DNA of 64,000 bases from Prevotella sp. (GTDB taxonomy: Bacteria > Bacteroidota > Bacteroidia > Bacteroidales > Bacteroidaceae): positions 31,535 to 95,534 of the forward strand of contig JAFTFG010000003.1 of NCBI GenBank assembly GCA_017449675.1. The letters are read 5' to 3'. Shown piece by piece: positions 3,001 to 60,337 of this stretch. Under the pieces are notes generated by a model, which saw only the letters and a program-made list of their open reading frames with translations, made no database searches and was not told the DNA's origin. Made by a program: the position numbers and the translations under genes. The first letter of the stretch is position 1. Every line of letters starts with the position of its first letter.

Positions 3001-4542
3001 GTCACAGTTCAACGTATCCATATCAGTTACGACAACCTGATTCAAATCCCTGCTCTTCTCTGTTAATCCAGTAAGAGTGCCTGGATATGAGCCAGTTTTT
3101 ACGGTAATTTTTATCGTTCCAAGTTTCTTGCCTTCATAATCCTTCGCATTGGAACGATTGACCCATCTTGCATCCTCAACGATACCATCGGCATCTGTGG
3201 CTTTAGGCCGCCAAGTTCTATCAGGATCAGGATTAATGATAGACGGATACTTACCCCACTCCTTCAAAATGGGATAAGGAGCGATACTTGGGTCGAGCAC
3301 CCATTTAGCAATTCCTGTGCTCTTGACATCATCATCAGTGGGAGTTGTTCCGTTAGTTCCATTCACCCACCATGTACAAAGTCGGCGGTTGCTATTTAGG
3401 ATACTACGATAATACTCAAAACGCGTCAGGTTTCTCTCCTCTGCTGGCCATGAGCGATTGTAATGAGCAATTGCACTATAATTATCATCAAAGGTGGCAT
3501 CTCCACGATAGTAATTATAGTTGTTGATGGCATTGTCGCCTTCATTGTTAATGACGTTACCTCCATAAACGGGATAAGCACTTCCTGGACCGCCGCCACT
3601 AATTTCACCATAGAACATACAGTTCACCACAATGGTCTTTATGCTACTCATCGTTGAGGCCTGGTTATTGCGGCCCACTATACCACCCATCATAGAACCT
3701 CCGCTAACAGTGGCATAACTATAACAATTAATAACTCGCGCTGTGCCATTCAATAGCCCTACAAGACCACCGACATTGCCAGTACCACTAACAGTACTAC
3801 CACTAAAGCCAGTGATATTTCCGTCATCGTCACGCTCAACGGTGGTTGGCAAAATACCGCAGTTATAGATACGGGTATTACCTCCTGCATTAGCGGTAAT
3901 AGCACCAGCATCTCCACTTACACCGATGTTGACATCCTCAAAGGTAATATTCCGAATGACAGCATTTCCACTGGTAGAAGAGAACAACGGTTTCGAAAGA
4001 CCATATATCTTATGAAAGCCACCATCAAGTGTACCTTTGAAATCACCCAAACTGGCAGATAGGGATGAGGCCTCAATATCCGATGCCAACTCGTAAAAAG
4101 CCGTCTCTGTCAAATCCGTAATCTCTGAAAGGCTTGTAATCACATTTGCTGTACTGGGAGCAAACGTTGCGGTCACAAAAGCACCATCATATTCTTCTGG
4201 AATATCAAACGTATAAGTCACCTCTCCTGTTTGCCATCCGTCAGGACCATTAAGAGTAAACTGCCCTATCCCCGGAGCACGACGTGAAGAGGAAGGATCA
4301 ATCATTTTCTCAACTACTATAAGAGATTTCTTGATTTTGTAACCAGAGGCTGGGGTAACTACAATGGTTACGGTTCGCCCTGAGAGCCAACCATCTCCAT
4401 CTGGCAGTCTGACAGTACCTGCTTCAGCATTAGGCTTTACAGTATTAATGATAATGTTACCACGTTCAATAGCCCACATTTCACCTGCCCCCATCAACAT
4501 GAGTGCCACTAACAAAATGATGTATCTTATAGTATGTTTCAT
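1..4542 (-). CDS. Giant secreted adhesin-like protein with YGGG motifs (partial, C-terminus outside window)
   Basis: The reading frame is open from the ATG at 4542 to the left edge (1514 codons, no stop), so the C-terminus is missing. It starts with a signal peptide (MKHTIRYIILLVALMLMGAG, cleavage near residue 25). Residues 28-75 look like an InlB B-repeat-type domain (GTV..., ...TPASGYKIKK). Residues about 140-300 hold GLUG-like motifs (FKGTLDGGFHKIYGL, NVGGLVGLLNG). From about residue 925 onward, at least ten motifs such as FYGGGN, VYGGGE, VFGGGN and IFGGGL alternate with short beta-strand-like T-V-x-I-x-G-G stretches, suggesting a beta-helix or solenoid. The same motif fills the first half of the 3898-aa protein two genes upstream, so the two are probably paralogs. 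It is the last visible gene of the fimbrial operon, 13 bp after its neighbour. Surface adhesin is inferred; no ligand can be named. Confidence 0.85.
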   Translation of the reverse strand, partial: MKHTIRYIILLVALMLMGAGEMWAIERGNIIINTVKPNAEAGTVRLPDGDGWLSGRTVTIVVTPASGYKIKKSLIVVEKMIDPSSSRRAPGIGQFTLNGPDGWQTGEVTYTFDIPEEYDGAFVTATFAPSTANVITSLSEITDLTETAFYELASDIEASSLSASLGDFKGTLDGGFHKIYGLSKPLFSSTSGNAVIRNITFEDVNIGVSGDAGAITANAGGNTRIYNCGILPTTVERDDDGNITGFSGSTVSGTGNVGGLVGLLNGTARVINCYSYATVSGGSMMGGIVGRNNQASTMSSIKTIVVNCMFYGEISGGGPGSAYPVYGGNVINNEGDNAINNYNYYRGDATFDDNYSAIAHYNRSWPAEERNLTRFEYYRSILNSNRRLCTWWVNGTNGTTPTDDDVKSTGIAKWVLDPSIAPYPILKEWGKYPSIINPDPDRTWRPKATDADGIVEDARWVNRSNAKDYEGKKLGTIKITVKTGSYPGTLTGLTEKSRDLNQVVVTDMDTLNCDFGYAKVQLPYYNEVFGDPSSNNHLTRYYGNYTNKVVTAWKITSVTTDGTVTDYHSFVANWESGYNYADRHSTAKDIYDSNGNRAFAQGGYYYVPEGVTAIEIEAYWGTAFYLHGKGHALDRVDVTKSKNYGRAFTPAGTLSTTMPYNSISIYDDFNTMMTAVKTNKTCNVYDQAVVLVGNYPMNAQNDIDLGNSGKGGFTIMSADFDMDNEPDFCFPLQWRSNYDRRPIMPVRFDFLPIPELGLTMRHNTYAYAIGIMVPQGHFEITETSFMHTTQFEYMSVSVNINHQQPLIFNGGEFEQIVAHGNTNKPEIAFTRNIIMGGHVWMKRFTPGSHAGNNNVRARHCAVSVMGGEFPEFYLSGLYRTDVTTNNAYNDNPHCYTNGGRFGIMAGAGMEAVRNSVYFEIDHSVIDEFYGGGINANNPVAGSINVTINNSLILEKYCGGPKVGTSQTVTTNAKGTVFNQYYGGGNGGTNLYREQIKDETPDDMPSESTWSGNTYGWSSFTPISGQNATATYDASKGYHAEFEFEVFNQSNGIDKSAVARSYRHWAQFGVTSTGNVTNTLSDCTFKHNFYGGGNLANVSGDVTSTLTDCTVMGSVFGAGFSASIPSFPVHDKTKVSFPYRDASGVCHNGSVGYLKDGNDIRQYTWCYKNPTTNVVSPAGVVIPDGVDTSKPAFQYDGKWYCYTTVSLEDLGTVTGNATLNIEGSTEVGGSVYGGGEESAVNGNTTVSIAGGMIGEEGQGRASNGSVFGGGNLGVVEHDTNVSISGGSVHYSVYGGGCEADVLGNTNVTMTGGYVFNGIFGGGLSGSVGTFTRSTAEADVTVFGSHPAHDGCIGMPMSCEGGTGKCTVSVTGGQIGPIEVATQGMTRPASEGGPVPEGWVWGGGCGLIEDPATHPDTHFKTYVGSTDVTIGGTAFILESIIGGGEFGRVLDNTHVTIEGNCQIGVGAGQTEGGKPKPYTNEQFVDPSETAVTTSLAPCSTFPYGKVVDGKTVYDTY

Positions 4543-4555
4543 TTCTATATTCCTT

Positions 4556-7500
4556 TTATCTCACCAATACTTTCTGATTGTTTCTAATATATAGTCCCTT
4601 TTTGGTAGGCTTACCGCTGAAACGAAGACCATCGATGGTATACCACTCGTCGCTTTCATGCACAGAGGGCTGATCCTTTATCAGTTTCACCATGTCAGTA
4701 GCAGTCTCCTTAATAAGTCTCAGACTACGTGATGAAGCAGGATTGCCTGGATCTTCCTGAGAATCGGAACCTACATAGTTAGGATTATATATATAGAAAT
4801 GATGAGGAGTTATTGTACCCTTTAAGGTAAGTACAAATTCACCCCGATAATAAACATAAGTCTCTGTTGCTTCTACTTCGACACCAGCCTCACCATCTGG
4901 AACATACATCAATTTATTGTTTTCCAACACATTCCCCGAAATGTTTTTAATATCTTCCGTCTTGGGATAAACTGTTAAGCCGGTAGCATCATGCTCTGCC
5001 AACAGCAATACAGGAGTATCTTTAGGTATATAACTGAGTGGATACAAAGATACTGTGCCCACAGATGGGTTGACCCTGCTGATGATATAGGGGCGGACAC
5101 CAACAGCCGCTGTCACCTGATCCTGCTCAGTAGAGATATAGGCGGCCACTTTCTCGCTCGTTGCAGTATCATCAAGGGGATAGAAAGAAATGTTAGAAGA
5201 ATAGGATGCCTTTGCAGAGCCTGTACAGTTATCACCCCGAGCCGTGACCGTTACAATGTTTTCCCCATCGCCCGCTTCACTCACCACATAGGTATAATCA
5301 CTTTCCGCAAAGGCTCTTTCACCATTATATAATGATACGATCCAAGATTCTCCATCTTTCCTGGCATTGATGGTGATTCCTGCTGCCGTTGTTTCGCCAT
5401 TCCCTAGATTCTTCTTGTTAATTGTCAACGTACCTGCCACAAATGATCCTAATACATAATTAGAACTCTTTACCTGATGGCTTATCTTCGTAATACTATA
5501 GGTACCGGCATTCTCTCCTTCTTCTCGCTGAAGTTCACATGTCACTACATTATCCTTTGCATCTGAGTTTTTAAGACCCTCAACATCGAAAGTCAGTTCA
5601 GGATCCACATCAAGATAGTCTTTTTCCTTTGCAACAGCCTTAATAATAATCGAAGCCTTAGTGATGGAGAAATTCGTGGTTGCCACACCTGCCTCATAAG
5701 CACCTATTGCGGCAATCTCCGCTTTCACGGTATAAGTTCCCACATTCGTCGGTTTGGTGCTGGTATATTTATCATCCCCTTCACTCTGTTTCTTGTATGT
5801 ATAAGTCACTTTTCCTTTGCCTGTATTTCCTGAGACTGACGGGTTCTTGGGACTTCCATAGGTCCAATCAGCCAAAGTGACGGTTGGGGTGATTGCTGTA
5901 CCATGTATGGTAAATGTTGCTCCTGCAAAAGAAGCGATACTATAATTTGCAGTGGCCGCAAGATCGCCCTGAGAAATCACATATGCTTTAGAATCCTCAC
6001 CATTCTCACGAGACAAAGCACCAGTCAAAGCATCGCCTATCGTATCTTCATACTTCAGTTCACCATCACCTACATGATAGGTCAACTCTGGGTCGTCTTC
6101 GCCATAGTTTTTCTCAACATCATTAGCAGTTACCGTCAATGGCGCAGGAGTAATCGTCAACTTGGCATCATTCAGTGTTATCACGTAGTTCGATCCCGCC
6201 GTTAAGGTACCCTCGGTAATAGCATACTCGCCAACGTTCTGATTATCCACATCAGCACGAGACAGGGCACCTGACACTTCATCGCCTTCCAGAAGACCAG
6301 ACACCTCCGAATATGTAAACACCGGATCATCATCACCATAGACCTTTGTCTTCGTTTCTGCCGTAATGCTCAATGGAATCTTGGTAATACTAAAAATTGT
6401 AGTTGTTTCAGTTGGCAACTGATAATTCGTATTCGACAAGGCTGTTGCTGTAGCCGTATATTGCCCGCAATTTATTCCATCACCTTCCGCAACACTCACC
6501 GTTACTTCACACTCGTCGCCCGTAATGAGATTGGCAACCGTTGCAGTAGGTTTCTGAACTGTTTTATTGTACGGAATTTCTGTCTCCCAAGCCAAAGTCG
6601 CTGTAAGTGGGGCTATCGTGAATGTCTTAGAGCCACTGACGATATAGACACTGCTCTCATTACTGGTAATGGTGACCGTCGCATTTCCTGCATTGATATT
6701 ATTTTCATAACTGACAACATAGTCGGGAATATTTGTCTCACCTACTTTTACACTGACTACAGACGGTGTCTGTTCCTCGCCATCATAAGTACATGGCACA
6801 CCTTCCAATGTAATTTCGGGCATGTAAGCAATCTTCTTCGTTATAAGATTAGAATTCACACAACCATCCTTAACAGCAACAGCCTTTATCGTTGTAATAG
6901 TCGCAACTGGCGGCAATTGAAAAGGACTACTGTATCTTTGGGCATCATCAGAAGGGTCTGGATCACTTCCATCTGTCGTAAAGTATATGACACTACCAGT
7001 GGAAACACCGCCAATACTCACTGTTCCTTCGTCACAGGAGATAACTGGAGGGACACATTTGTTAAAAGGAATAAGATCCCATTTTGATCCTGCGTTATTT
7101 GATTCATTCCATAATCCTATCATACCAGCATGACTATTCGCATCTTCTGGTCCATAGTTATTTGCATTACCTCCACTGGGATTCAGATATTTATAAATTC
7201 CTTGTACTAATGTCTTATGGTATATGTTATATGGTCCCGTTTCAGCAGTGGCATCATATTCACGGGCAAAAACAAATTCATTTTCATCACCAAGTCTCTC
7301 AACAGACTGAAGATGAACCCTCCGGCGATGGGCTTGCGTAGAGACGGGTGCAGCATTGGTGGTAAGATATTTTTCCGCACCATTATTATCCTCATGTATG
7401 ATATAGTAGTAATCACCTACCTTTCGTACTAACCATAGGAATTTTGACATATTCTCCTCTGCCTTATGCGTTGTCAAGTAAGGTTGCCCCTCTGCCCAGA

Positions 7501-7719: not shown

Positions 7720-10700
7720 TTACTTTAATGCCAGTTTCTTTTGATACCTGCCACCAGCGGCACGGACGATATAGACACCGCTGACAGGTATGTATGTCTC
7801 AACGGTCTCACCCGGCTGGATGGTGAAGTTAGCGACAGTGATACCAGCGATGCTGACAATGCGTACATCTGCCGACTCACGAAGTGAGGAGGTGACAGCA
7901 ATCGCATGACGACGGACTGAGAATATCAGACCACCCTCGCCGATCTCCTCCTTCGACGGGTCTTCATCACCGATAGCGAAAGATGTGCCGTCACTATCGA
8001 AGGTGATATATTGGACTGCCCTGCGAGAAGGAGCCGGAGTTGAACCGTTGCCTGCCACGAAGTACGGACGGAACGGTACAAGAGCAGTCGGCTCATCCAC
8101 TCGTTCGAAGAGACTGCCATTGGTATTCAACTGATAGCCCGTTACCGCCTTGCTGCTATAGTTAGGTTTGAAGATATAGCCGTCCAGAGCGGCTCCCTCC
8201 TGCTCATCATCACTGACACCGACAGTGATACCAGGATCAGACACGAAGGAGATCACCTGCTTGTCAAGTTTCGCAGGTGCGGCCTCTGCTGTATTCTTGG
8301 CCGTCCACTCACCGCTTAGGTCAAACTCATAATAAGTCTTGCCCGGGAAGCCGACAATATATGGTTTGGCGGCAGTCAACAGCGGGTAGGCTGTCAGGTT
8401 ACGGGATGACTCATAATACCGTTGATAGGTATCTTGGTTGGCATCCTTACGCGCGTTCTTATTATAATAATAGTCCCAGAGGAAGGTATTATCCACCGTC
8501 TTGGCAGAACCACCTGCTGTCGGATAATTGAAGGTCGCAGTGAAAGTACTCTCTGATTCCGTCTTCTTACCCAGATACTCACGCAGCCAATACTCATGAC
8601 CTATCTTCGTACCATTCTCATCAATTGAACGGCTACCACTGTAGAAGTGGGTTATCTCACCCTTCTGCTGGGTAGTAATGAGTTCGGCCGTGAACGGCAG
8701 ACTAACGGTCTCCCAACCTTCCGTCAGATTGACATAACGGTCAGGTGTACGCTGATACCACATACGTTTTCCATCAGCAAAGGTGTAACTGATAGGACAG
8801 TTGAAGTCTTGTTTGTCTACCAACAGATGATCGCTGGTTGCCTTGAGGCTGCTCTGTACCAGATGCCCATGAACAGACAGTGTCGGTGCGGTATTGACAC
8901 GGCGATAGGTATCATCCATATAATAAGAGGTGTAATCGGGATCCACGAAATAGTCATTCAGTACATCATGGGTCTTTTCATCAACCTCTGCCGATGGTGC
9001 GTAAACCAACAGGTTGGATGTCTCACCATTATTCACAATGCTGAGCAATCCGTCCTCACAGTCGAGAACAGGCTGATAGAACAGGTTGTCATGAAGTCCT
9101 AACGTATAAGTGTTGTCATTATGTCCTGCAAAGTCAATCGCTGTCATATTAGGATATGCCGCCTTCATTGTTTCGTCTGTCAGTGACTCCGGCTTAGAAT
9201 ATGCCGCCAAGTTTGCCCATAGATTAAAGTGGGCCATACCCATTTTCTCACTCTGATAATAGGCAGGAGCACGATAAACACGGTTGTTCAGATTGTCGCT
9301 CTGCAGTCGTCCGCTACTCTTGGCTATATGCGTTGGAGTATCATTATGAGGACGTGATGAGTCATAGTCATAGGTCAATGTCTGTCCAAAGAACATATAG
9401 TCATCAGGCCAGATAGGTACATAGTACGTCGTAATCGTCTCACCTTCTGTCTTGGTCCTCTGCCGTTCATCGGGTGATTCCGGTATCGAACCACCGGCAT
9501 AGATGAAGTCGATGTTATCGTAGCGACGCTCCACGTATCCCAAGTCACCATATTTGGCTGAGGCAGCAGCGGGATAATAGGATGAACTTTCTGTCAAAGT
9601 GCCATCCGCAGATACGTTGAGATAGTTATACTTCTGGTCTGCCGCAGCGGGAGAGTCACTGGCCATATGGTCGTAGTAACGCTTGTTCAGGTAGAAGCCA
9701 TTCAGATTATAAGCCACCTCACCATTGTAGAAGGCTGTAGAGTTCTTACGTATCGTGGTACCATAACTACTATTCTCTGCATGGTTGATATACTTATTGG
9801 CAGCGTTATCCTCTTCAAGATAGTAACTATTGACAATCTGAACAGGTTTCTCTGCATCATTCCTTGTCGGATAGCCAAACACCGGCTTCGTCGTCTTAAC
9901 GCCCGTATTAGAGGTGCTTATCCAACAATTCTCCACATAGCCATCACCTTTTTCTACAACACCCGCTCCAGTGAACGATCCCGTAACACCCAGATTATAC
10001 ACCTCGCCACAGAGTTTATAGAAGAGAGAATTGTCAAGACCACTGATGGTATAGCCGTCACCATGTAACGTACCTTCAAAGCAATGGGTATCACTACCGA
10101 TAGACGACCAGGCGGAGCCCTCATGACTGAGATTGCTCTTCAATATAAAGTCCAGATTCTTGCTATTGCCCACCTGATCAGTATTCAGTGCAGCATGACC
10201 AGCAACCGTTTCTCCTGTGCTCAGGTCGAAGAAACTCTTCAGCAGGTCAAGTTGATTCTCACCCTCATGCCTAACCTGATCCAGATAGATCTTCGGGTTA
10301 CGTACTCCTGGCAGTGCTAAGTCCTCGTGATCCACATACATATGGTGCTCCGTGTCTGCCATCACGTCGCTAAGGTCATGGTAGTTGGCCACAGTAACGA
10401 GTACCGGCTCGGAATAAGACTTGCCGAGATAAGTCTTCGAATAGAAGGCTACCCATCGTTTCTCATTCTGATACCAATATACGGGAGTAGCATTATTGGT
10501 GAAGGGCACGCCGTTACGATGCATATAGGCATCGGTCTCATTTTCGAACATCTCCCATCCATTGGAGATCACCTCATAGAGTCCGGGGTTCACCGTTGGA
10601 GCCTTCAGACGCAGTTTGTCACCCGGCAGTACCGTAGGAGGTGCGCTCAATGGTCCTATCTCCGGTGCACCACTCTCTAACTGCAAGTGGATGTTCACCA

Positions 10701-13700
10701 CGTGCAACTCATTCACCTGACTAATACCTTCACCATCATCATCTGCCTCATAGTAGGTATATTGATACACCACACTGATGACCTTTTCAGAAGTGACATC
10801 CCGGGCATTCGACTCACGTGAGACATACAGTGTGGTGGTCTCCGTAGGTTCTGAACCTTGAATGGTAAAGCCCTCCTGATAGTTCTTCAGCGCAGTATAA
10901 GCAGCATAGTCGATCACCGTTCCTTCGGTTACATCATCATAAGGCTTATAACAGTAGTACTTGACTTCATCAGTAGTACCTCTGTTGAGAACCACTGATG
11001 TCGTCTTAGCCTTATTCTCGTCTGTCAGATTATTATAGTCCTTCTGACTGATATCCTGTCCTTCTCCATAAGGTGTTCCATGATCGGTGAAGTTCTCCTT
11101 GGCAATATAAACCGTCAGCGTCTCGGAATCAACAGTCTTGGCTTTCACATCTATTCGTGTATAGTGCTTCTTCTCATTCTTGATTTTCTCAAACTCGTCT
11201 CTTGAGATAGACGCACCAACAGCCACCGTTTTCGGGGTACCGGTAGCCTCGCTCTCATTCTCATAATAATAGGTCAATGCCGTTGTCTCCGTATTGACGG
11301 CTGTGTACTCTACCGGCTTTACCGCACTATAGAGCGGACTGTTATTTCCGTCATAGACAGCGGTATGTCCCTCACCTGGATAAGTAGGAGCCGTCAACAC
11401 ATCGAAAGCATCATAGTTGAATGCGAACTTATCACGGTCTTCTGTCAGTGAGCACCAAGCCTTGATGGCACTATAGTTGGTGTTTGCCTCAAAGTATTGG
11501 CCACCATACTTACCTGCCTTCTTACAGTAATAAGCCTCTGACAGATGTTCCTTCACATAGGCGAGTGCCTCATCAGCGTCTTCAATGATATCAGCATTTG
11601 CTTGTGAGTTGTTGTAAGCCATATACTTCGCAGCGATAGCACTCAGACTGGTTGCCGAGACCAAATCACCCAGAAGCAGATACTCTTCCTCACCCAGTCT
11701 GATCGTACTGGTGCACACCATTGCCAGTGCGTAGTTCGACTTGTCGGCCAGCGCATTATATGCCGATTGGGAAATGCTACTACCCTTCTGAGTCGCACCC
11801 ACATCAGCCAACGCCACATAAGCCGGTTCCACCTCGGCCTGAGTTGCCTGCCAAGCAGTCCTCTCTGCCTCGGTCATCGTTGCAAGCATTCCACTGATAG
11901 TGGTCGTATAATCAGTATACACCTCCTTGGTGATGATCTCGGACTCTTCATAACTACGCTGGCCATAGAGACCATTGTCACCGATGAGTGTAAACGTCGG
12001 ACCTTCCCTATATTTGTCCTTTTCAGCAGATGTTGGTAATGCTTTATAGTCTTCCTTCCTTATTCTCGTATTTGTTTCATCATCACCGGTATAGATACTG
12101 CTACCCGTGAGAGGACTATACCAGTCATCCCAATCTTTGGGACTATCCATATCGAAGGTAAGCACATAACCTGTATTATGGCTGATATTGTTAGACGGAT
12201 GGAATGCGTCATCGACACTCATGGCAGAGCCCCTCAGGTTGGCAATGGTATGACTACCGGTCTTGAATACCGCATAGGCTGTCGCATTCGTATTTCCACT
12301 ATGTATAGATGCGTCATTCTCCAACACATAAGTACCGGCAGGATAGAGTGTGCCATCCACGTAGCATGTATCCACATTGACATAGGTCTCCTTCACGAAA
12401 TAGCCTTGCTCGTTGGCCGACAACTGGTGCCAGTCCCACCAAGTAATAACATCGTTAAGTTGGTAAACCTCACTCTCGTTGTTCACCTTCACACCCTCCT
12501 GTCCTATCTTATGTTCTTCTGTCTTATCAGTAGAAGAGGTATAATAGGCATAGAGGTTAGGCTGCACATTCAGCAACTTCAACTTACCACTAGAGCCGGC
12601 GGTAATGGTCAACGGTATCTTCACCTCCTTAGAATAGGCAGAGGCAGAACCTGCGTATGCCGACACCACCTGATCATAGATATACACCTCACCCTTAATA
12701 TACCAGTAATGGGCCGGTGATGCCTTATACTCATCACGGTACACACCATTATTCGGGAAACAGTCGTCTACAATACGTTTTGTCTTATGAATGAAGTTAC
12801 CGGAGGTCTCATGGTCTAGAATCTTCGTGGGATCATCTTTACCATCATCATAAGTATATCGTTTGTAGGTTCGGGCCTCCTGGTCACGTCCGACAGCAGT
12901 GTTCTGCATATTGTAGGGCGAGAGTATCACATTCTCATAGTCACTATGATAAGATCCCTGACCATGTTGGTTCTTGGCATAGACATAGCCACCGCCTTCG
13001 ATATCCTTCTTCACATTGATCAGGTCAAGTTCGATGATACCTGTGATATATCCATAGTCCTTCTTGGTCTTGGTACTGTTCTCAGTGGTCAGTTCGAGGA
13101 ACACGCCCGATGCCAAAGCCACCTGATTGTGACAGGTACCGTTATTACGGTCACGTTTCGTCAGTCGGTCTGTCTTCCATGTATAATAGGTATATAATTC
13201 CGATTCACTCCGAGACACCGTTTCTTCTTTCTTGTCGGTATTATCCCATCTCAGGTAGGTATCAGTAAACTTCACATCACTGGTAAGGTTACCTAGATAG
13301 TTCACCACGCTATAGATGCCGAAGTAATTACCATGCTGTTTCTTGCTTGCTTCCGTATCACCTGCTATAGACTTTTGCAGGTTAAGCGACAACTCACCCA
13401 CTCGGTTGATTGTGTACTCCGTCTTGTCACCGATATCCGCCACACGGTCATTGGCACCTTGCAGTACCATTCGTGAGCCGAACACGCCACAGAGGTCAGC
13501 ACGCTGGATGGTATTCAGCAGTCGTCCGGCATAGATGGAACAGAAGCCGTACTGCTCCCATTTATCCTTTTCACTTGAGGGTAAGTCATCGTATTCATCC
13601 TCTGAGATACGACTGACACCGCCCGTATAGGTCTTGCCATTGGAGGTATAAGTCACTTTGCACAGGTATTCCAACTGGAAGTAGGCACGCTCACGGTTGG

Positions 13701-16700
13701 TCAAAGAGTCGCGATAGGCCGTCAGACTGATCTGCTGGTTCAGTCCGTAATAGTCGGTACCATAGTTGGTGATGTTCAACTCACGATAGCCGTCGACCAT
13801 CGACAGGTTACCACCGCCATAGAGTCCTCCGGTATGCTCCGTACCCACAGTAATGAAGTCACGGTGATAGACATCGAAAAGCGTAGCCGTCGTATTACCG
13901 AATACCGTTGTGGCATTGGCATACGTCTTATCACTGTTCGATGATACATTACCACCGGCAAACACCGCATTATAAATATGCACACCACGTTCCTCCCGGT
14001 CATCAGGGTCGATGGTCGCTGTTCCGTCACCGCAGAAGAGTTGTTTCCATTTGGCAGCATCTTCACTCTTACCCTTCAGCGTATTCAAGTATTCTGTAGG
14101 TACGTAATCCCAAGGCTTGTATGTTTTCCCGCCATAGGAGATATAGTCTCCCTCGCTCACCGTAGGCCGTACCTGCAACATGGGAGAGATGACCACCTTA
14201 CAGTCTTCAGTCAGGTCGCCATTCTCATCATAATAATACCAGTGGTTGGGCGAACCGGTCATCCCTCCAGGGTTGTCTTCTTTCTCGCTTTTTGTCTTAT
14301 CGCTGAAATAACCTTTACTATAGACGAAGCCCACGTCGCCTCCACCAAAGACATTACCGAAGGAGCGCTCGTCAGCCAGGCCTTCCTCTGTACCCACTAT
14401 ACCACCGTGTATATACACTTCCGTCTGTCCAAAGACATAGCCGTCAGTATAAAGTTCGTTAGTACCGCCATAACCCTGAATATTATAGCCTTTACCACCA
14501 CCGAAGACATTACGCTGTACATAACCGTTGTACAGTTCAATATGTGTTTTTCCCGGCATATAGATTTTCTGCAAGCCGCGATCCACTCCCGACAACACTG
14601 CTGTCTTACCGCGGCCTACGGTAGCGATCTCTCCGCCACCATACATACTACAGCGTACTCGACCACCGTACATGATCACATTGGTAGAGTCAACACTACT
14701 CTTGTCATCATAGCCGCCACCGAAGGTATTACCGCAGTCTGCCAGACGAGCGTTCTCACCACCTGTGCCGTATGTCTCATCATGGATCTTCTCCTGATAG
14801 AAACCGCCACCATCAGCAAAATACGGAATATTGTCTTGTGGCTCCGTAGTAAAATATCTATAACCTATATAACCGTTATTAATAGTCAGCGTAGAAGAGC
14901 CGAACACAGAACCGCCCTCACCGGCACCATAAGCATTACGCTCAATAGCGGGGACACCCTTGTAGAAACCATATCCGTCAGGGAATTTCTCAGAATCGTT
15001 GAAGTCAATATTCTGATCCTTACGGATGCCGATAACCACATTTGCTTTTGCTGGACGATCACCCTCCGTCGTACCGGCTACGGCCACGAATTTACCATCA
15101 ACGGTTTCACCGTCATGCTTTCCGACATGTCCTTCGTAGCCGCCGCCATAGACATTACGCACCGTACCTCCCTCGACAAAGGCATTGGCAGTGGCCGTAA
15201 ACGCATCATCGCCAGTCACATCATATAATGCTGCTACCGAGCCTCCCCAACCACCGGCATAGAGGTCTTTCTTCACAGTACCGCCATGCAGACCGATGTA
15301 GGTCGTACCGCTAACAGTAGCCGTAGTACCGAGGCCGCCGCCATAGCAATAGCCCCAAACAGTGGCTCCCTTGTTAATGTATACATTGGTATTGGTTTTC
15401 TTGCCCAACGGGTTCGCTTGCACCAGATAGCAGTCAAGGCCCTCATCAGTATAGCCTTCACCAAGGTCAAGAGGCAATTTAGAGGGATCACCCTCGTTAT
15501 TGTCCTTATCCAAGTCTTCCTGCCATGCCTTGACCGTCTGGGTGTTGAGCACCCTACCACCATAGCCGCCACCATAGACCTCATAGACACTGGCTCCATC
15601 CAGCAGGTTAACTTCTGTATATTGTGACCAGGAGCCAGGACCATAGCCACCGCCAAATACTCTGGAGGAGTAACCTGATGTCGCATTCTGCAGTACGTTT
15701 GTATCTATCGTAATCTTGCTATACAGTGTACGGCCAAAGGAGTTATTACCCCCAAAGACGGCTCCTGACATAAACTCCAACTGACCGCTTGTCTCATTCA
15801 GTCTGAAGTCTTCCGCCACTGTCTGATCACCTTCAGCCACCGCCGCACCGCTATGGTAATTCACATTAGCCTCATAGACATCACACACCACATCATTTTT
15901 CAGACCGTAGGCACCACCGAAGAGTCGTTTAAAATAGATTGTGGAACCGGTAGGAACATTGACAATTGTACGTCTGGTGAAACCCTCTCTGTAACTGGCT
16001 CCATAGGCGGCATAAATCTGTCCGCGCATCAGGTCGATGACGGCAGCGGCAGTAACACCGTCGGTATTTGCTCTGGCTATGGCGGGATTGAGGGCGGGGG
16101 TCAGACTGGTAGCCTCCTCATTACGCATGCCGACACCGCTAAAGTCACCGGCTCCGAACACCTCCATGTTCTGGAAGTTTGTCTGGTTCTGCGGGATATC
16201 GATAAGCACATAACTACGGTCTTGCATGATGTCACGGTCGGAGTCACCGGTGTAGCCCTGTCCTGCTCCATAAATCTTGGTCACGGCATTACGACTGTTG
16301 CTGACTGGTTTGAAGTTGACAAAGGCACTCTCCATACGGGGTTTGGTAAAGTCCGTTCCTTCACGAGCCATACCAGCAGCCTTACCTTCAGGAATATCCG
16401 CCTCACCTGCTGTATAAGTAAAATCCTTATAGTGCGAATCCTTATAGTCGTAGTAGCCATAGCACCCACCGAAGATATAGTCTATACGTCCCTGCTGATA
16501 CTCGATATAGGCAGAAGCATCCGTGACTTTGGGAGTCTCAGCATGGGTAGGATTATAAACCTTACCCTTGATATCGTCACTGACACGGTCATAGAAATTC
16601 TCTGTACGGAGAATCCGTCCACCGAGGTCGTTACCGCAATAGATATGGTCACGAACCCATGGGAAGCCGCTGCCATAGGTGCCGTCAGTTTTCACCTGAC

Positions 16701-19416
16701 GACCCACATAGGTCTCCGTATGTCCTAAGATGTCGGCATTACAACTACCGGCAAAGGAGTTAAACACACGACCGTTACCAAGATTGATGACCGTATTACC
16801 GGCTATCGGAGCCTCAAAGGAGCCACCATAGATAAACTCTGCCTCCGCCATGTCATCGTTATCGTTCGTGTGACCTCGGTAGACACCAGGGTAATCACCC
16901 TTCACGTTGACATAGCAACTATAGGTTTCATCGTACTTGAAGGACTTTCCGTTGAAAGTATAAGTACCACCTGTGGTTACTGGTTTGCCAACGACACCCT
17001 TCTCACCGCCACCGAAGATCTGGAAGGCATAACCGGCATTCAGATTGATGGTGGTACTTCCCCATATCTCAGAGTTCTCACCAAAGCCGCCACCGAAGAC
17101 ATTCAGCGCACGACCCAACGGGTCCATTCCCTGCTCATCGAGGATGACACCAGAACGACGTTCGAGAATCTTAAATGACTCACCACTCTCCCTGTTATCG
17201 TAGAGAATGGCCTCACCCTCATTAACCTGAATGCTGTCAAACACGGCATACTTTCCTTTGCGGTCGACAATCGACGCATTGATGTTGATGACCACATTAC
17301 CATTCACATGTCCACTGTTATAACATCCGCCATAGATATTACCACCTTTCAGACGACGGTCGATATCCAATGGAGAACTCTCCACATCCCCTCCCGTCGT
17401 GACAGGGTCTACATCCTCACCCGTAGCGGCACGGATGGTATTCCACTCCAATTGTCTGTTGCCATTAGCATCAAGGGCATATTCTGTCGTATAGGCACCT
17501 CCTGCATCTTTCTCCATTTTCCAGCGCTTGGGCTGAATCTTCAGACCATTGAAGTTCATCACCAACTTATTGCCTGTCACCGCATCCTTGCTTCCTATCA
17601 GTCCTCCCTCATAGGCGGCATTATATCCTGATGCCTTAACATTGGCATTGTTACAGCCACCCACCACCTTATTATATATAATAACCTTTTTGTCGAATTC
17701 CAGCGTCACAACACCATCGTAGGTGATACTACCCACATTACCTCCACCGAAGATAGAGCCGAAATAGGTAGTATAATCCACATACGAAGCATCGAAAACC
17801 ACACGGGGTTTGATATCCATCGCAACGGCTTCCATATATTTGGCAAACTGGCTCCCCTGTGTCAGATCTAAAGAACTGAAATCATCATCCGCATACTTTC
17901 TAAGCACACCACCCTCAGTAGCGTCAATCATGTTGACACCATTATTACCAAGGAAGACATTGTCAGCATAAACATGTGAGCCAATCTTTAACTCTGAGTA
18001 GGCATCCGCATCCGGATTAGCATTATGTAAAGTTGCGCTATTTCCACCACAATAGATAGAACCGCCAATAATGGTAGGATGGTCAGCGTCAGAACCACTT
18101 ACAAAGATAGAGACTGACTCTGTAACAGGGCGAAAGGCATTCAACGCATCCACAGAACTGCTTCCCGGATTATAATAATAGTCACCATAGATAAGGTTAT
18201 TCCTCAACTCCTCTTTGTCAGTATATGCGTAAGAGCCGTTACCACCACCATAGACATCACCACTAATACTGTGATAGATACCTACGGAAGCACCTCCCCA
18301 CACCTTGCCTGAGATGTCATTGCCACCATAGACGTTGGTGATATCACCACCAAGTATTCTGACATGCGCGGAAAGACCTTTTGGGAAAGAATATCCCTCC
18401 CATGCAGGGGCTGTCACATCCCTGCCGTCCTGCTTGGGGCGTACATCTGCCTTACGACAACCCCCATAGACATTGTTGACCGTAATCGCAGCAGTAGCAG
18501 GTATCTCCAGCATCAAACCCTTAGGACTAGTCATATCTCCCTCATTTCCACCAGAATAGAGGTTATCGATTTTTCCATTTTTCAAATGCCAAGAGGGAGT
18601 AATAGCCATCTCAGCCTTGTTATTACCGCCAAAGACACGTGAGAACTGATAGGTATCCCTCAAGACCACATCCCCTAAAACTCCGATTCCCATCTTCTTG
18701 AGGCGATCGTTGTCATCCTTTAACAACTTATTGTTCTCACGATCAGTATTCTCACGATCAGTCCCTATCGGTATGATCGTTGTCACGGCACTGCTGTTGT
18801 CAATACAGATATCAGTAGCCCCGGTTACTGTCGCATTATTACCGCCACCATAGACATAGGCAATGGTACCCCCACGAAGTTCCAGATAAGTCTTATTGAG
18901 AACAGGCGGTTGCTTTCCTGGATAATCACCTCCTTCTGTATAGGTATAGTCACCATTACCACCTCCGAAGAGTTGTCCGATAAAGATATTATAAGGTTGT
19001 GAAGTGGTTTCCTCATCGCCAGTTCCCGTTGTCTCTTTACGCTCTGGCGTGGTCAATATAAAGGCATTGTAATTATCAACGCTTTTATTGCCTTCTAATA
19101 CCTCTGTCAACTGGGTCGGTTTGGTTCCTGACCCTATCGTTCCTGATACATCGTTACCACCATAGACAAAGTTAATCAGGATGTCGCCAGACATGTTCTC
19201 ACCGTCAATATTGACAAAGGCATTACCTCCGACATCCGCCATACGGGCACCGCCATAGACATGGTTCAAATCACCAGCACATACGGTAACAGAGGAACTG
19301 CCTCCTGTATTACCGGCATTACCACCGCCATAGACGCTACCGCTTATGACTATCTGCGCCTGCACCGGTATGGCAATCAGCAGAATGAAACTGATGATGA
19401 TATCTTTAATTCTCAC
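7720..19416 (-). CDS. Giant YGGG-repeat secreted adhesin, 3898 aa, with type IX-like sorting tail
   Basis: One uninterrupted frame of 3898 codons. A signal peptide comes first (MRIKDIIISFILLIAIPVQA). From residue about 25 to 1870 the chain carries more than 30 motifs of the form [VIL]-[YF]-G-G-[GNC] (VYGGGN, VFGGGY, IFGGGE), each followed by a short strand-rich linker ending in V-x-I/L-x-G-G. This is the pattern expected of a long beta-helix/solenoid. Residues about 1870-3000 are mixed and rich in Y, T, D and E. Residues about 3010-3180 contain a GLUG-like segment (FEGTLHGDGYTISGL). The last 50 or so residues (VRIVSIAGITVANF, GVYIVRAAGG, KKLALK) match the type A sorting tail of type IX-secreted proteins. 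Position in a fimbrial operon suggests a fimbria-associated or cell-wall-distant adhesin; the ligand is unknown. Long frames on the opposite strand are composition shadows. Confidence 0.9.
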   Translation of the reverse strand: MRIKDIIISFILLIAIPVQAQIVISGSVYGGGNAGNTGGSSSVTVCAGDLNHVYGGARMADVGGNAFVNIDGENMSGDILINFVYGGNDVSGTIGSGTKPTQLTEVLEGNKSVDNYNAFILTTPERKETTGTGDEETTSQPYNIFIGQLFGGGNGDYTYTEGGDYPGKQPPVLNKTYLELRGGTIAYVYGGGNNATVTGATDICIDNSSAVTTIIPIGTDRENTDRENNKLLKDDNDRLKKMGIGVLGDVVLRDTYQFSRVFGGNNKAEMAITPSWHLKNGKIDNLYSGGNEGDMTSPKGLMLEIPATAAITVNNVYGGCRKADVRPKQDGRDVTAPAWEGYSFPKGLSAHVRILGGDITNVYGGNDISGKVWGGASVGIYHSISGDVYGGGNGSYAYTDKEELRNNLIYGDYYYNPGSSSVDALNAFRPVTESVSIFVSGSDADHPTIIGGSIYCGGNSATLHNANPDADAYSELKIGSHVYADNVFLGNNGVNMIDATEGGVLRKYADDDFSSLDLTQGSQFAKYMEAVAMDIKPRVVFDASYVDYTTYFGSIFGGGNVGSITYDGVVTLEFDKKVIIYNKVVGGCNNANVKASGYNAAYEGGLIGSKDAVTGNKLVMNFNGLKIQPKRWKMEKDAGGAYTTEYALDANGNRQLEWNTIRAATGEDVDPVTTGGDVESSPLDIDRRLKGGNIYGGCYNSGHVNGNVVININASIVDRKGKYAVFDSIQVNEGEAILYDNRESGESFKILERRSGVILDEQGMDPLGRALNVFGGGFGENSEIWGSTTINLNAGYAFQIFGGGEKGVVGKPVTTGGTYTFNGKSFKYDETYSCYVNVKGDYPGVYRGHTNDNDDMAEAEFIYGGSFEAPIAGNTVINLGNGRVFNSFAGSCNADILGHTETYVGRQVKTDGTYGSGFPWVRDHIYCGNDLGGRILRTENFYDRVSDDIKGKVYNPTHAETPKVTDASAYIEYQQGRIDYIFGGCYGYYDYKDSHYKDFTYTAGEADIPEGKAAGMAREGTDFTKPRMESAFVNFKPVSNSRNAVTKIYGAGQGYTGDSDRDIMQDRSYVLIDIPQNQTNFQNMEVFGAGDFSGVGMRNEEATSLTPALNPAIARANTDGVTAAAVIDLMRGQIYAAYGASYREGFTRRTIVNVPTGSTIYFKRLFGGAYGLKNDVVCDVYEANVNYHSGAAVAEGDQTVAEDFRLNETSGQLEFMSGAVFGGNNSFGRTLYSKITIDTNVLQNATSGYSSRVFGGGYGPGSWSQYTEVNLLDGASVYEVYGGGYGGRVLNTQTVKAWQEDLDKDNNEGDPSKLPLDLGEGYTDEGLDCYLVQANPLGKKTNTNVYINKGATVWGYCYGGGLGTTATVSGTTYIGLHGGTVKKDLYAGGWGGSVAALYDVTGDDAFTATANAFVEGGTVRNVYGGGYEGHVGKHDGETVDGKFVAVAGTTEGDRPAKANVVIGIRKDQNIDFNDSEKFPDGYGFYKGVPAIERNAYGAGEGGSVFGSSTLTINNGYIGYRYFTTEPQDNIPYFADGGGFYQEKIHDETYGTGGENARLADCGNTFGGGYDDKSSVDSTNVIMYGGRVRCSMYGGGEIATVGRGKTAVLSGVDRGLQKIYMPGKTHIELYNGYVQRNVFGGGKGYNIQGYGGTNELYTDGYVFGQTEVYIHGGIVGTEEGLADERSFGNVFGGGDVGFVYSKGYFSDKTKSEKEDNPGGMTGSPNHWYYYDENGDLTEDCKVVISPMLQVRPTVSEGDYISYGGKTYKPWDYVPTEYLNTLKGKSEDAAKWKQLFCGDGTATIDPDDREERGVHIYNAVFAGGNVSSNSDKTYANATTVFGNTTATLFDVYHRDFITVGTEHTGGLYGGGNLSMVDGYRELNITNYGTDYYGLNQQISLTAYRDSLTNRERAYFQLEYLCKVTYTSNGKTYTGGVSRISEDEYDDLPSSEKDKWEQYGFCSIYAGRLLNTIQRADLCGVFGSRMVLQGANDRVADIGDKTEYTINRVGELSLNLQKSIAGDTEASKKQHGNYFGIYSVVNYLGNLTSDVKFTDTYLRWDNTDKKEETVSRSESELYTYYTWKTDRLTKRDRNNGTCHNQVALASGVFLELTTENSTKTKKDYGYITGIIELDLINVKKDIEGGGYVYAKNQHGQGSYHSDYENVILSPYNMQNTAVGRDQEARTYKRYTYDDGKDDPTKILDHETSGNFIHKTKRIVDDCFPNNGVYRDEYKASPAHYWYIKGEVYIYDQVVSAYAGSASAYSKEVKIPLTITAGSSGKLKLLNVQPNLYAYYTSSTDKTEEHKIGQEGVKVNNESEVYQLNDVITWWDWHQLSANEQGYFVKETYVNVDTCYVDGTLYPAGTYVLENDASIHSGNTNATAYAVFKTGSHTIANLRGSAMSVDDAFHPSNNISHNTGYVLTFDMDSPKDWDDWYSPLTGSSIYTGDDETNTRIRKEDYKALPTSAEKDKYREGPTFTLIGDNGLYGQRSYEESEIITKEVYTDYTTTISGMLATMTEAERTAWQATQAEVEPAYVALADVGATQKGSSISQSAYNALADKSNYALAMVCTSTIRLGEEEYLLLGDLVSATSLSAIAAKYMAYNNSQANADIIEDADEALAYVKEHLSEAYYCKKAGKYGGQYFEANTNYSAIKAWCSLTEDRDKFAFNYDAFDVLTAPTYPGEGHTAVYDGNNSPLYSAVKPVEYTAVNTETTALTYYYENESEATGTPKTVAVGASISRDEFEKIKNEKKHYTRIDVKAKTVDSETLTVYIAKENFTDHGTPYGEGQDISQKDYNNLTDENKAKTTSVVLNRGTTDEVKYYCYKPYDDVTEGTVIDYAAYTALKNYQEGFTIQGSEPTETTTLYVSRESNARDVTSEKVISVVYQYTYYEADDDGEGISQVNELHVVNIHLQLESGAPEIGPLSAPPTVLPGDKLRLKAPTVNPGLYEVISNGWEMFENETDAYMHRNGVPFTNNATPVYWYQNEKRWVAFYSKTYLGKSYSEPVLVTVANYHDLSDVMADTEHHMYVDHEDLALPGVRNPKIYLDQVRHEGENQLDLLKSFFDLSTGETVAGHAALNTDQVGNSKNLDFILKSNLSHEGSAWSSIGSDTHCFEGTLHGDGYTISGLDNSLFYKLCGEVYNLGVTGSFTGAGVVEKGDGYVENCWISTSNTGVKTTKPVFGYPTRNDAEKPVQIVNSYYLEEDNAANKYINHAENSSYGTTIRKNSTAFYNGEVAYNLNGFYLNKRYYDHMASDSPAAADQKYNYLNVSADGTLTESSSYYPAAASAKYGDLGYVERRYDNIDFIYAGGSIPESPDERQRTKTEGETITTYYVPIWPDDYMFFGQTLTYDYDSSRPHNDTPTHIAKSSGRLQSDNLNNRVYRAPAYYQSEKMGMAHFNLWANLAAYSKPESLTDETMKAAYPNMTAIDFAGHNDNTYTLGLHDNLFYQPVLDCEDGLLSIVNNGETSNLLVYAPSAEVDEKTHDVLNDYFVDPDYTSYYMDDTYRRVNTAPTLSVHGHLVQSSLKATSDHLLVDKQDFNCPISYTFADGKRMWYQRTPDRYVNLTEGWETVSLPFTAELITTQQKGEITHFYSGSRSIDENGTKIGHEYWLREYLGKKTESESTFTATFNYPTAGGSAKTVDNTFLWDYYYNKNARKDANQDTYQRYYESSRNLTAYPLLTAAKPYIVGFPGKTYYEFDLSGEWTAKNTAEAAPAKLDKQVISFVSDPGITVGVSDDEQEGAALDGYIFKPNYSSKAVTGYQLNTNGSLFERVDEPTALVPFRPYFVAGNGSTPAPSRRAVQYITFDSDGTSFAIGDEDPSKEEIGEGGLIFSVRRHAIAVTSSLRESADVRIVSIAGITVANFTIQPGETVETYIPVSGVYIVRAAGGRYQKKLALK

Positions 19417-27651: not shown

Positions 27652-27990
27652 CCTACTACAGGTTTTTAATTCTCTGCAACATCTTACATTCTGCAACACT
27701 CGTTGATAATCAGACGATTACGTGTTGCAGATGGGTTGCAGATATGTAAGATAGGGGCTTACAGGTCAACAGGTGCCGCCTCCGAGGGTCGAAGGTGCCG
27801 CCTTCAGGGGCAGAAGGTGCCGCCTCCCGGAGTATTCCCTTATGGGGAACAAGTTGTTTCATACAGGGAAACAAATCATTCCATACGATGGAACAAGTTA
27901 CTCCAAGGCCTGGGATGATGTATTCTAAGGCATCGGACAAAGTGTTCCTAGGTATGGGAAGGAAAAATCCCCCAATTACAGGGGCAATGT
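27652..27990 (+). repeat. Dispersed intergenic element, copy A (stem-loop plus ten 22-bp units)
   Basis: Fills most of the 538-bp gap between the fimbrial operon and the CYTH gene; the remaining 27532-27651 shows nothing recognisable. Copy A begins at CCTACTACAG (27652) and holds two nested inverted pairs: TCTGCAACAC 27690-27699 with GTGTTGCAGA 27722-27731 (22-nt loop), and TCTGCAAC 27673-27680 with GTTGCAGA 27735-27742. From 27771 to 27990 it runs as ten units of exactly 22 bp: three AGGTGCCGCC units, then seven degenerate units related to CCCTTATGGGGAACAAGTTG. It ends 2 bp before the CYTH stop codon. The same order of parts occurs inverted at 59946-60308. Small frames inside it are not credible genes, since 22 is not a multiple of three. 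Confidence 0.8.
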
Positions 27991-31663: not shown

Positions 31664-32716
31664 ATGGCATACAAGAACTATACCAATGAAGCGGTGTCGT
31701 TGTTGAGCAGGCTCATCAGTACACCCTCTGTCAGTCGTGACGAACAAGCGGCTGCAGATATCCTGCAACAGCAGATCAAAGCATGGGGATTACCCTGTAA
31801 ACGGGTAGGCAACAACCTGATTGTCGCCCAGCGACACAGTAAGCGGAAACCCACCCTGCTACTGAATGCCCATATCGATACGGTAAAACCAGTGGCCACC
31901 TGGACACGGGACCCTTTCACACCGACCATCGAGGACGGGAGACTCTACGGACTGGGAGCCAATGACTGCGGGGGCGGACTGGTCAGTCTGCTGCAGGCCT
32001 ACCGGATCCTAAGCCAGAAGGAGGACACACCTTATAATATAATATATGTGGCATCCTGCGAGGAAGAGGTCAGCGGTGCTAACGGTTTTTCTGCCGTACT
32101 ACCCCATCTGCCCGCCATCGATGTCGCTATCGTAGGCGAGCCAACGGGTATGCAGCCCGCCATCGCCGAGAAGGGACTGATGGTCATCGACGGTGTCGCT
32201 CATGGCAAGAGCGGTCATGCAGCCCGCAACGAAGGCATCAATGCCATCTATGAGGCTCTCGATGACCTGCAATGGCTCCGCGACTATCGGTTCCGCAAGG
32301 TCAGTCCCCTGTTGGGTGAGACCAAGGTGACCGTCACGGTCGTCCATGCAGGTACCCAGCATAATGTCATCCCCGACAAACTGGAATTTGTCATCGACGT
32401 ACGTACTAATGAATACTATCAAAACGAATATCTCTTCGCCTTCCTGCAGAAACACATGAAGAGTGAGTTGAAGGCCCGTTCCTTCCGACTACACTCCTCT
32501 TCTATTCCTGAAGACCATCCTCTGGTCAGGAAGTGCAAGAAGATGAGAATGAAACCCTTTGGTTCACCGACTCTCTCCGACCAGGCACTCATGCCCTTCC
32601 CCTCATTTAAACTGGGGCCGGGGGAGTCCTGTCGTAGTCATTCTGCCGATGAATTCATCTGTATTGACGAGATTCATCAGGCGATAAACACTTATGTGAG
32701 GTTGATTTCGAGATAA
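31664..32716 (+). CDS. M20-family metallo-deacylase (ArgE/DapE-type)
   Basis: 350 aa from the ATG at 31664. An in-frame ATG at 31607 exists but lies upstream of the promoter's -7 box. Metal-binding motifs of the M20 family are present: LLNAHIDTVKP (H and D ligands), LYGLGANDCGGG (bridging D), ASCEEEVSG (catalytic and metal E), VGEPTGM, and HGKSGHAARNEG in the dimerisation lid. Such enzymes remove the acyl group from N-acetyl- or N-succinyl-ornithine, or from succinyl-diaminopimelate; Bacteroidota use a succinylated arginine route, so an ArgE-type role is plausible. No arginine genes are nearby to confirm it. The stop codon lies inside the 8-bp repeat array that fills the convergent spacer. 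Confidence 0.88.
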   Translation: MAYKNYTNEAVSLLSRLISTPSVSRDEQAAADILQQQIKAWGLPCKRVGNNLIVAQRHSKRKPTLLLNAHIDTVKPVATWTRDPFTPTIEDGRLYGLGANDCGGGLVSLLQAYRILSQKEDTPYNIIYVASCEEEVSGANGFSAVLPHLPAIDVAIVGEPTGMQPAIAEKGLMVIDGVAHGKSGHAARNEGINAIYEALDDLQWLRDYRFRKVSPLLGETKVTVTVVHAGTQHNVIPDKLEFVIDVRTNEYYQNEYLFAFLQKHMKSELKARSFRLHSSSIPEDHPLVRKCKKMRMKPFGSPTLSDQALMPFPSFKLGPGESCRSHSADEFICIDEIHQAINTYVRLISR

Positions 32717-32804
32717 CGATATATCGATATATCGATATATCGAAATGACGAGATGACGAGATGACGAGATGACGAGATTTCGAGATAACGAGACTCCGAA
32801 GAGT
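32709..32804. repeat. Octamer repeat array (CGANATNN x 12) in convergent spacer
   Basis: Twelve consecutive 8-bp units each begin with CGA: CGAGATAA, three CGATATAT, CGAAATGA, four CGAGATGA or near, CGAGATTT, CGAGATAA, CGAGACTC, CGAAGAGT. The array covers the whole 87-bp space between the convergent M20 and LytM-like genes and supplies both stop codons. A related octamer array occurs at 60092-60173. Confidence 0.85.
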
Positions 32805-59835: not shown

Positions 59836-59945
59836 ACAGTCTATCTGACCTTTTTTTGCCGTGATCACTCCAGGTATTGGAATGAGTTGTCTTAGATATA
59901 GGTACGTTTGAAAGGGATGGCACTTTAAGGTTGTAAACAGATAGT

Positions 59946-60308
59946 GGAACAATTTGTTCCCCCGTACGGAACAACTTATCCCCCGGTACGGAACAAAGTG
60001 TTCCCCATAGGGGAACAACCCGGGAGGCGGCACCTCCAGCCCTCGAAGGCGGCACCTCCAAGGGCCGAACCCTGTGGCTTCGAGCGGGAAGTCGAGATAT
60101 CGCAGGTCGTTATATCGTTATCTCGAGATATCGCAGGTCGTTATATCGTTATCTCGATATATCGAAATATCGATTTTTTAGCCCTTTTGCCCCCATTTTA
60201 GCCCCTTATCCTACAATCTGCAACCCATCTGCAACACGTAAACGCCTGACTTTCAAGAAGTGTTGCAGAATGGCAGATGTTGCAGAGGATTAAAAATCTG
60301 TAGTAGGC
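59946..60308 (-). repeat. Dispersed intergenic element, copy B (inverted relative to copy A)
   Basis: Read on the minus strand it repeats the part order of 27652-27990: CCTACTACAG, TTTTAATCCTCTGCAACAT, a 10-bp stem TCTGCAACAC/GTGTTGCAGA (plus-strand arms 60228-60237 and 60260-60269, 22-nt loop), then GGTGCCGCC units of 22 bp (60026-60047, 60048-60069), then GGAACAA units of 22 bp (59946, 59968, 59990). Between stem and units lies an extra octamer stretch (60092-60173) that copy A lacks. It fills most of the 616-bp gap between gyrB and the regulator; 59836-59945 shows nothing recognisable. Confidence 0.8.
60092..60173. repeat. Octamer-type CGA repeats inside element copy B (31-bp tandem duplication)
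   Basis: On the minus strand the stretch reads as units starting with CGA, of 8 bp with an occasional 7: CGATATTT, CGATATAT, CGAGATAA, CGATATAA, CGACCTG, CGATATCT, then again CGAGATAA, CGATATAA, CGACCTG, CGATATCT. The last four units are thus a perfect 31-bp tandem duplication. The unit CGAGATAA and the unit CGATATAT are also the building blocks of the array at 32709-32804. Confidence 0.8.
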
Positions 60309-60337
60309 GTGTAGTGTACTGAATAAGTGGGGATAAA

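Follow-up and report, generated by a model that had tools for sequence, protein, structure and literature searches.

Two intergenic repeats of a Prevotella genome are probable gene-less members of a family bounded by terminal inverted repeats and carrying DUF6078 and VapE genes

The window (the whole stretch of Prevotella sp. DNA analyzed here, 64,000 nucleotides) contains two similar repeats in opposite orientations, copies A and B, which raises the question of what they are and what spreads them. A sequence-only reading had taken them for one unnamed intergenic element of 340–360 bp. Both copies are real and mutually inverted (A at 27652–27990 on the plus strand, B at about 59941–60309 on the minus strand), and a 26-base head pattern, allowing up to three mismatches, found no others in the window (expectation from 100 shuffles, 0.00). 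The presumed uniformity did not hold, as the copies are mosaics of modules, namely a terminal inverted repeat (TIR) head, a linker, GGTGCCGCC units, and GGAACA palindromes, with TATCGA units that are present in B and absent from A.

The head of copy A (27652–27755, plus strand) matches a gene-bearing element on contig C5 of the same genome (described below), sharing 84.6% identity with the right TIR of that element over 104 bp. It is composed of 9-bp words of the type TCTGCAACA and holds an internal hairpin (z −5.3). On the same strand follow a 22-bp GGTGCCGCC minisatellite of 2.6 units (27771–27827, from TRF), a palindromic 22-bp GGAACA array (27831–27904; TRF 27845–27905) homologous to the array lying between the two genes of the C5 element (pieces of 58–93 bp, 62–74%), and a decayed tail of the array module (27905–27990, placed by eye against other copies), with the right TIR missing. 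Copy B, read on the minus strand, begins with a head (60216–60309) that matches both TIRs of the C5 element (88.3% over 94 bp for the right and 84.0% over 94 bp for the left) and continues with a TATCGA-type satellite of periods 8, 16, and 31 bp (60092–60172; TRF rows 60092–60164 and 60107–60172), two GGTGCCGCC units recognized in the sequence (60021–60059), and a palindromic GGAACA array again homologous to that at C5 (59941–60020; TRF 59946–60006). Its tail module (CTTTAAGTGCC ... ATCACGGCA; 59852–59940, by eye) is common to other copies, and here too the right TIR is missing. Copy A is neighbored by a CYTH gene and a DUF3575 gene, and copy B by gyrB and a TPR-like gene; the GyrB of the window is 95–98% identical to five Prevotella-type records, including P. 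communis at 96% (the 98% match spans 502 of 656 residues). Elsewhere in the window, we noted a headless satellite of the TATCGA/CGAGATGA type (32708–32793), which resembles the one in copy B, and, on the minus strand, a 3898-aa frame that runs without interruption (7720–19416).

Two copies in the window had been taken to suggest many in the genome, and this was borne out by a search of the home genome (G000; 1.80 Mb in 30 contigs, 54% complete) with copy A and its head. Copy A at E up to 10 gave 66 match pieces, many of them satellite pieces or chance, while the 25-base 3′ part of the head, with up to two mismatches, gave 20 matches (7 forward and 13 reverse on the contigs). A single C15 head, read at either end of that contig, is counted twice among these, leaving 19 heads, so that an absence of further copies is excluded; nor was any one known repeat family matched in the searches made. 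Frames overlapping the heads reach at most 176 aa from stop to stop (18 distinct heads, row L149 repeating the L010 head). Read from the head, the copies begin with CCTACTACAG or CCTACCAGAAATG, followed by the TCTGCAACA-type words, a variable middle with TGATAATCA and TTACG, reverse-complement words, the linker, and then the satellite/palindrome mosaic, which is found in either direction relative to the head.

What kind of end the head represents is indicated by a gene-less copy at C17:260634–261147, where two heads face inward; the head is thus a terminal inverted repeat, and copies A and B have evidently lost their second end. Copy B and the copy at C17:326777–326906 have an outside flank in common, pointing to segmental duplication rather than separate insertions, and the 60-base flanks of the remaining heads are unrelated by eye. 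Headless arrays of GGTGCCGCC also occur at other places in the genome, such as on contig C6, where they lie beyond a further VapE gene and TATCGA-like units are present too. GGTGCCGCC is absent from the C5 element; these satellites look like unrelated minisatellites that expanded within gutted copies.

The gene-bearing partner lies on contig C5, where two inverted heads occur about 2.7 kb apart. This full element (C5:44822–47666) comprises a TIR, a DUF6078 gene, a palindromic GGAACA array, a BT4734-like/VapE gene, and an inverted TIR. The DUF6078 protein has 148 aa (PF19555, E 2.5e-36), and the second protein, of 614 aa, carries BT4734-like_N, VapE (PF05272, E 7.2e-33), and DUF3874 domains. 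In a comparison of copies A and B with this element at E up to 0.01, nothing matched outside the TIRs and the spacer array (the longer array pieces at 62–75%), which marks the two as internally deleted copies; their membership in the family is well supported. Since the genome is 54% complete, other partners may have been missed. We also noted a 143-bp inverted pair (L176:2336–2478 and L176:8360–8502, 91.6% identity) that flanks the C5 element from outside.

The association of TIRs with this gene pair extends beyond the home genome. DUF6078 is present in 87 of 150 genomes of the genus, and a TIR census covered 42 DUF6078 loci (40 of those listed and two known). Inverted repeats of 34 to 158 bp span the pair at all nine loci where DUF6078 is followed by VapE in the same direction, compared with four of the 33 other loci (three of 18–37 bp and one, L257, of 99 bp). 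At L257, TIRs enclose DUF6078, and all that matches the VapE protein is a 35-aa stretch of its C-terminus, a layout that looks like an intermediate deletion form. The specificity of the arms was assessed across loci with ten pairs, these being eight of the nine (L263 was dropped as its VapE gene is farther off) together with L265 and L268. Nine of the ten exceeded every control between different TIR families (90 cross pairs, maximum 18, setting aside two L176/L177 pairs, which share a TIR family); L268, from Parabacteroides distasonis, scored 17, below the control maximum, and its right end looks eroded. Among ten further VapE loci, TIRs above the cross controls were found at seven (L305 with just 17 bp), the three missed being a C-terminal remnant (L304), a contig edge (L308), and L309, which has a full-length VapE protein with no DUF6078 match nearby and no TIR above controls.

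A second arrangement consists of a TIR, a VapE gene alone (~400 aa), a TIR, and then DUF6078 just outside the right TIR. Of these VapE-then-DUF6078 loci, all six have TIRs around VapE (L225, L228, L230, L231, L256, and L259; L227, cut by a contig end, is not counted). No TIRs were found at two non-VapE control loci, whose upstream gene is unrelated, and four Bacteroides or fecal VapE relatives without DUF6078 (L264, L266, L267, and L269) had either no TIR or one of 28 bp, so the tie between TIR and VapE is looser outside this group. At one full element, a tRNA-Phe gene (L245:1697–1770) immediately precedes the left TIR.

Between the TIRs, 10 of 11 full elements contain exactly two non-overlapping frames of at least 100 aa, DUF6078 and VapE (TIR bounds set by hand), and none of the non-overlapping frames in these ten is an integrase. 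The eleventh, L263, which belongs to another TIR family, contains one frame more, which encodes a DDE_Tnp_1 transposase domain (3156–5036), and its VapE protein, beside the transposase gene, has 375 aa and lacks the N-terminal domain. We tentatively read the DDE gene as a later insertion, as a transposon landing in the VapE gene would give such a layout; it is nevertheless the one result that favors an ordinary transposase.

Further Prevotella genomes show the same design, built from other TIR words and other arrays. In G027, the full element has a TACCAA/TTGGTA array and a TIR related to but distinct from that of the home genome, and all five gene-less copies (compared in 1.4-kb windows) match their own full element in TIR and array, the match running about 70 bp past the TIR in two of them. 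The one-contig genome G024 has a full element of 3172 bp, running from CTAC to GTAG, with TGTCACTAA words and a GATTACCCAACGTGGGTAAT array, alongside gene-less copies of 826 and 798 bp (L301 and L302) that keep both TIRs and the array and have different flanks. In G056, a 99-column inverted pair surrounds a TTTCCCA/TGGGAAA spacer, and VapE pieces were found in the same genome. The head DNA itself was found in 2 of 200 genomes of the genus and 2 of 149 relatives (among the best four or five candidates per genome, own genome included), and the head pattern in 3 of 100 genomes, again including its own; the exact pattern had no matches in either genome_contigs or viral_contigs. The head is therefore lineage-specific, whereas the design is not.

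Copy A had no match in phage or plasmid collections. Relatives of the VapE protein occur in 510 phage records, seven of them covering at least 80% (the best being unverified fecal scaffolds), and in 101 plasmid records, four of them at that coverage. One of the seven phage records, L265, is itself a TIR-DUF6078-VapE element. In viral_contigs, the VapE profile found no relative among 186 stretches, and three single VapE proteins used as queries gave no match, no match, and one weak match.

Among nine spacers (L268 left out), palindromes exceeded all 200 shuffles in six and did not go beyond shuffles in L235, L237, and L260. Single-strand hairpins with z below −2 were predicted for 27 of 44 TIRs, against 12 of 44 control windows, 10 of which were second windows that start at about the end of the DUF6078 gene and lie inside the spacer array. 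The TIRs of L256 and L259 folded no better than shuffles. Since a strong hairpin is present in many TIRs yet missing from others, the feature that the ends share is their repeated words.

Several sequence features of the two proteins bear on how such an element could work. The invariant residues of DUF6078 are four Cys, an Arg, and a Tyr-Tyr pair, and no HxH pair, as in an HUH nuclease, occurs among the invariant residues of DUF6078 or of the VapE protein. In the latter, the Walker motif reads GYNKST in six of seven sequences and GDGKTS in the seventh, with LDEFN in all seven, and the VapE domain matches a solved chain (7pds, ‘Similar to D. nodosus vapE’, E 5.4e-11). Motif I of AEP primases is given as hhhDhD/E (PMC5862659). 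At the corresponding position, placed by eye, all ten aligned N-terminal domains lack D in the first place (E in four) and an acid in the second, making priming by this domain unlikely; the BT4734-type protein on contig C6 of the home genome reads VDID.

The Rep/Cch2 helicases of SCCmec and SaPI elements are described as self-loading and as recognizing short iterons (PMC7581432). By analogy, the TIR words would be sites of the VapE helicase. More generally, we infer that the TIR words and the array are cis-acting sites, and the array, which is seen where DUF6078 sits within the TIRs, may be recognized by DUF6078 or by the N-terminal domain. In the working that we propose, the VapE helicase would bind the TIR words, much as staphylococcal-island Rep helicases bind their iterons, while the array would be bound by DUF6078 or the N-terminal domain. 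The helicase would open or replicate the element starting at its ends and would also serve gutted copies in trans. Cutting and joining could be the work of an element-borne enzyme, for which DUF6078 is the candidate, or alternatively of a host nuclease or recombinase. We regard copies A and B as probably being truncated, gene-less members of a TIR-bounded family on whose words and array the helicase and DUF6078 would act, and, judging from the sequences compared, a VapE element driving the family without a transposase is the most likely arrangement. That this represents a widespread transposase-less class, in which a VapE helicase and a cysteine-rich DUF6078 with lineage-matched words leave gene-less repeats behind, is a more tentative proposal to which we give somewhat less than even chances.

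Among the options raised for the repeat was a non-autonomous mobile element, and this is now supported by the dispersed copies, the two-headed C17 copy, and a gene-bearing partner in the genome whose ends and inner array are the same. As no clean empty site was found, we infer mobility from the dispersed, truncated, and both-ended copies. At copy A, the CYTH gene is present in seven of eight related genomes with no element piece nearby, and the other flank is non-syntenic; for the G035 and G024 elements, no match spanned both flanks in relatives (best three candidates per genome).

The family could also be moved by other means. The strongest contender, though still unlikely, is that a tyrosine recombinase (host or foreign), an Xer pair, or a REP-type (RAYT) transposase does the cutting and joining, with VapE replicating the excised form. 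This would suit the three complete G024 elements, at which no target duplication of at least 3 bp was seen by eye, as well as the several TIRs that are interrupted palindromes of short words and the CTAC/GTAG carried by some element ends. A tyrosine recombinase gene does lie ~1.6 kb beyond the C5 element, but outside its TIRs, and GTAG is on the opposite side of the hairpin from that in the REP arrangement.

Quite unlikely, in our estimate, is that the repeats are ordinary MITEs moved by a conventional DDE transposase, encoded by an insertion sequence whose ends match theirs, VapE being a passenger. Mobilization of this kind has been proposed for BrickBuilt and IS5-type elements of Porphyromonas gingivalis (PMC4596501), whose general form (short, intergenic, with inverted ends and an inner minisatellite) is the same. 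Inverted ends without a gene are likewise present at C17:260634–261147, L301, and L302, and L263 does carry a DDE_Tnp_1 gene between its TIRs. However, the other ten full elements have no transposase frame, the G024 elements show no duplication, and a passenger would not explain why the TIR word varies between VapE elements while the arms of each agree. The G024 search took the best 3 of 127 candidate stretches, so that an insertion sequence with these TIRs could have escaped it.

It is improbable that the TIRs and arrays instead serve resident VapE genes as sites of replication or control, with the gene-less copies having spread by recombination rather than transposition. The flank shared by copy B and C17:326777 does mean that at least one copy arose by segmental duplication, yet the flanks of the other heads are unrelated by eye, and those of the both-ended G024 copies differ. 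Highly improbable is a structured RNA gene or chromosome-organizing site, for although the stem is conserved in the aligned heads of the home genome and no head lies within a long frame, Rfam at gathering score matched nothing in the window except a tRNA, covariation lends the stem no support (266 of 500 shuffles reach the observed score, in a stem too conserved for a strong test), the L256 and L259 TIRs fold no better than shuffles, and the gene-bearing partner accounts for the repeat.

No TIR-bounded VapE/DUF6078 element was found among the titles and abstract openings surveyed in mainly open-access journal literature. The nearest described repeat is BrickBuilt, a minisatellite-bearing MITE of P. 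gingivalis with 12-bp ends that match IS5-family insertion sequences (PMC4596501). Like the present family, it is an intergenic repeat of the Bacteroidales with inverted ends and an inner 22–23-bp tandem repeat, and most of its 19 copies in one strain, as described there, lack an intact end. The family described here differs in its ~80–120-bp ends of repeated words, which match a VapE/DUF6078 element; the GAGACC-type 12-bp ends given for BrickBuilt are absent, the ends here being CTACCAG or CTACTACAG, and it is by their ends that the two are set apart. PINSR, a 188-bp repeat of Prevotella intermedia and P. nigrescens with 177 and 184 copies in two strains (PMC4755523), is likewise a high-copy intergenic Prevotella repeat, but the portion of its description consulted gives it no TIR and names no partner, and it is by this description that it is set apart.

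The replication modules of SaPI and SCCmec elements resemble the full elements in having a VapE/D5-type helicase, short repeated words nearby, and a primase-type domain or partner. In the elements described here, by contrast, both ends are built of the repeated words, and the primase-type domain has lost motif I. SaPI and SCCmec elements carry integrases or recombinases and are not known to have TIRs. The BOX and RUP repeats of pneumococcus and REP/REPIN with RAYT, a Y1 transposase, are, like the present family, modular and non-coding, and are thought to be mobilized in trans; none is known to have a VapE partner. Parvovirus-type genomes with TIRs and an SF3 helicase, and Helitrons, offer an analogy in that a helicase is the main gene and the ends hold protein-binding repeats, but these carry an HUH nuclease, and none was recognized here.

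An otherwise unnamed Prevotella repeat thereby gains a concrete parent element, and the DUF6078 and BT4734/VapE proteins gain a likely job, the former having no assigned function in Pfam. If a helicase element does move without a transposase, this would add to the ways in which bacterial DNA is known to spread, and the lineage-specific TIR words and arrays would provide a ready set of specificity variants.

Finally, contig C15 (1–4211; L178), whose one head carries GGTGCC units, has identical first and last 141 bases and thus forms a circular assembly path of ~4.07 kb, with an excised circle, a tandem copy, and a loop in the assembly as possible origins. Besides the head, it contains two FdtA-like genes, a DegT-type aminotransferase gene, and a HipA gene.
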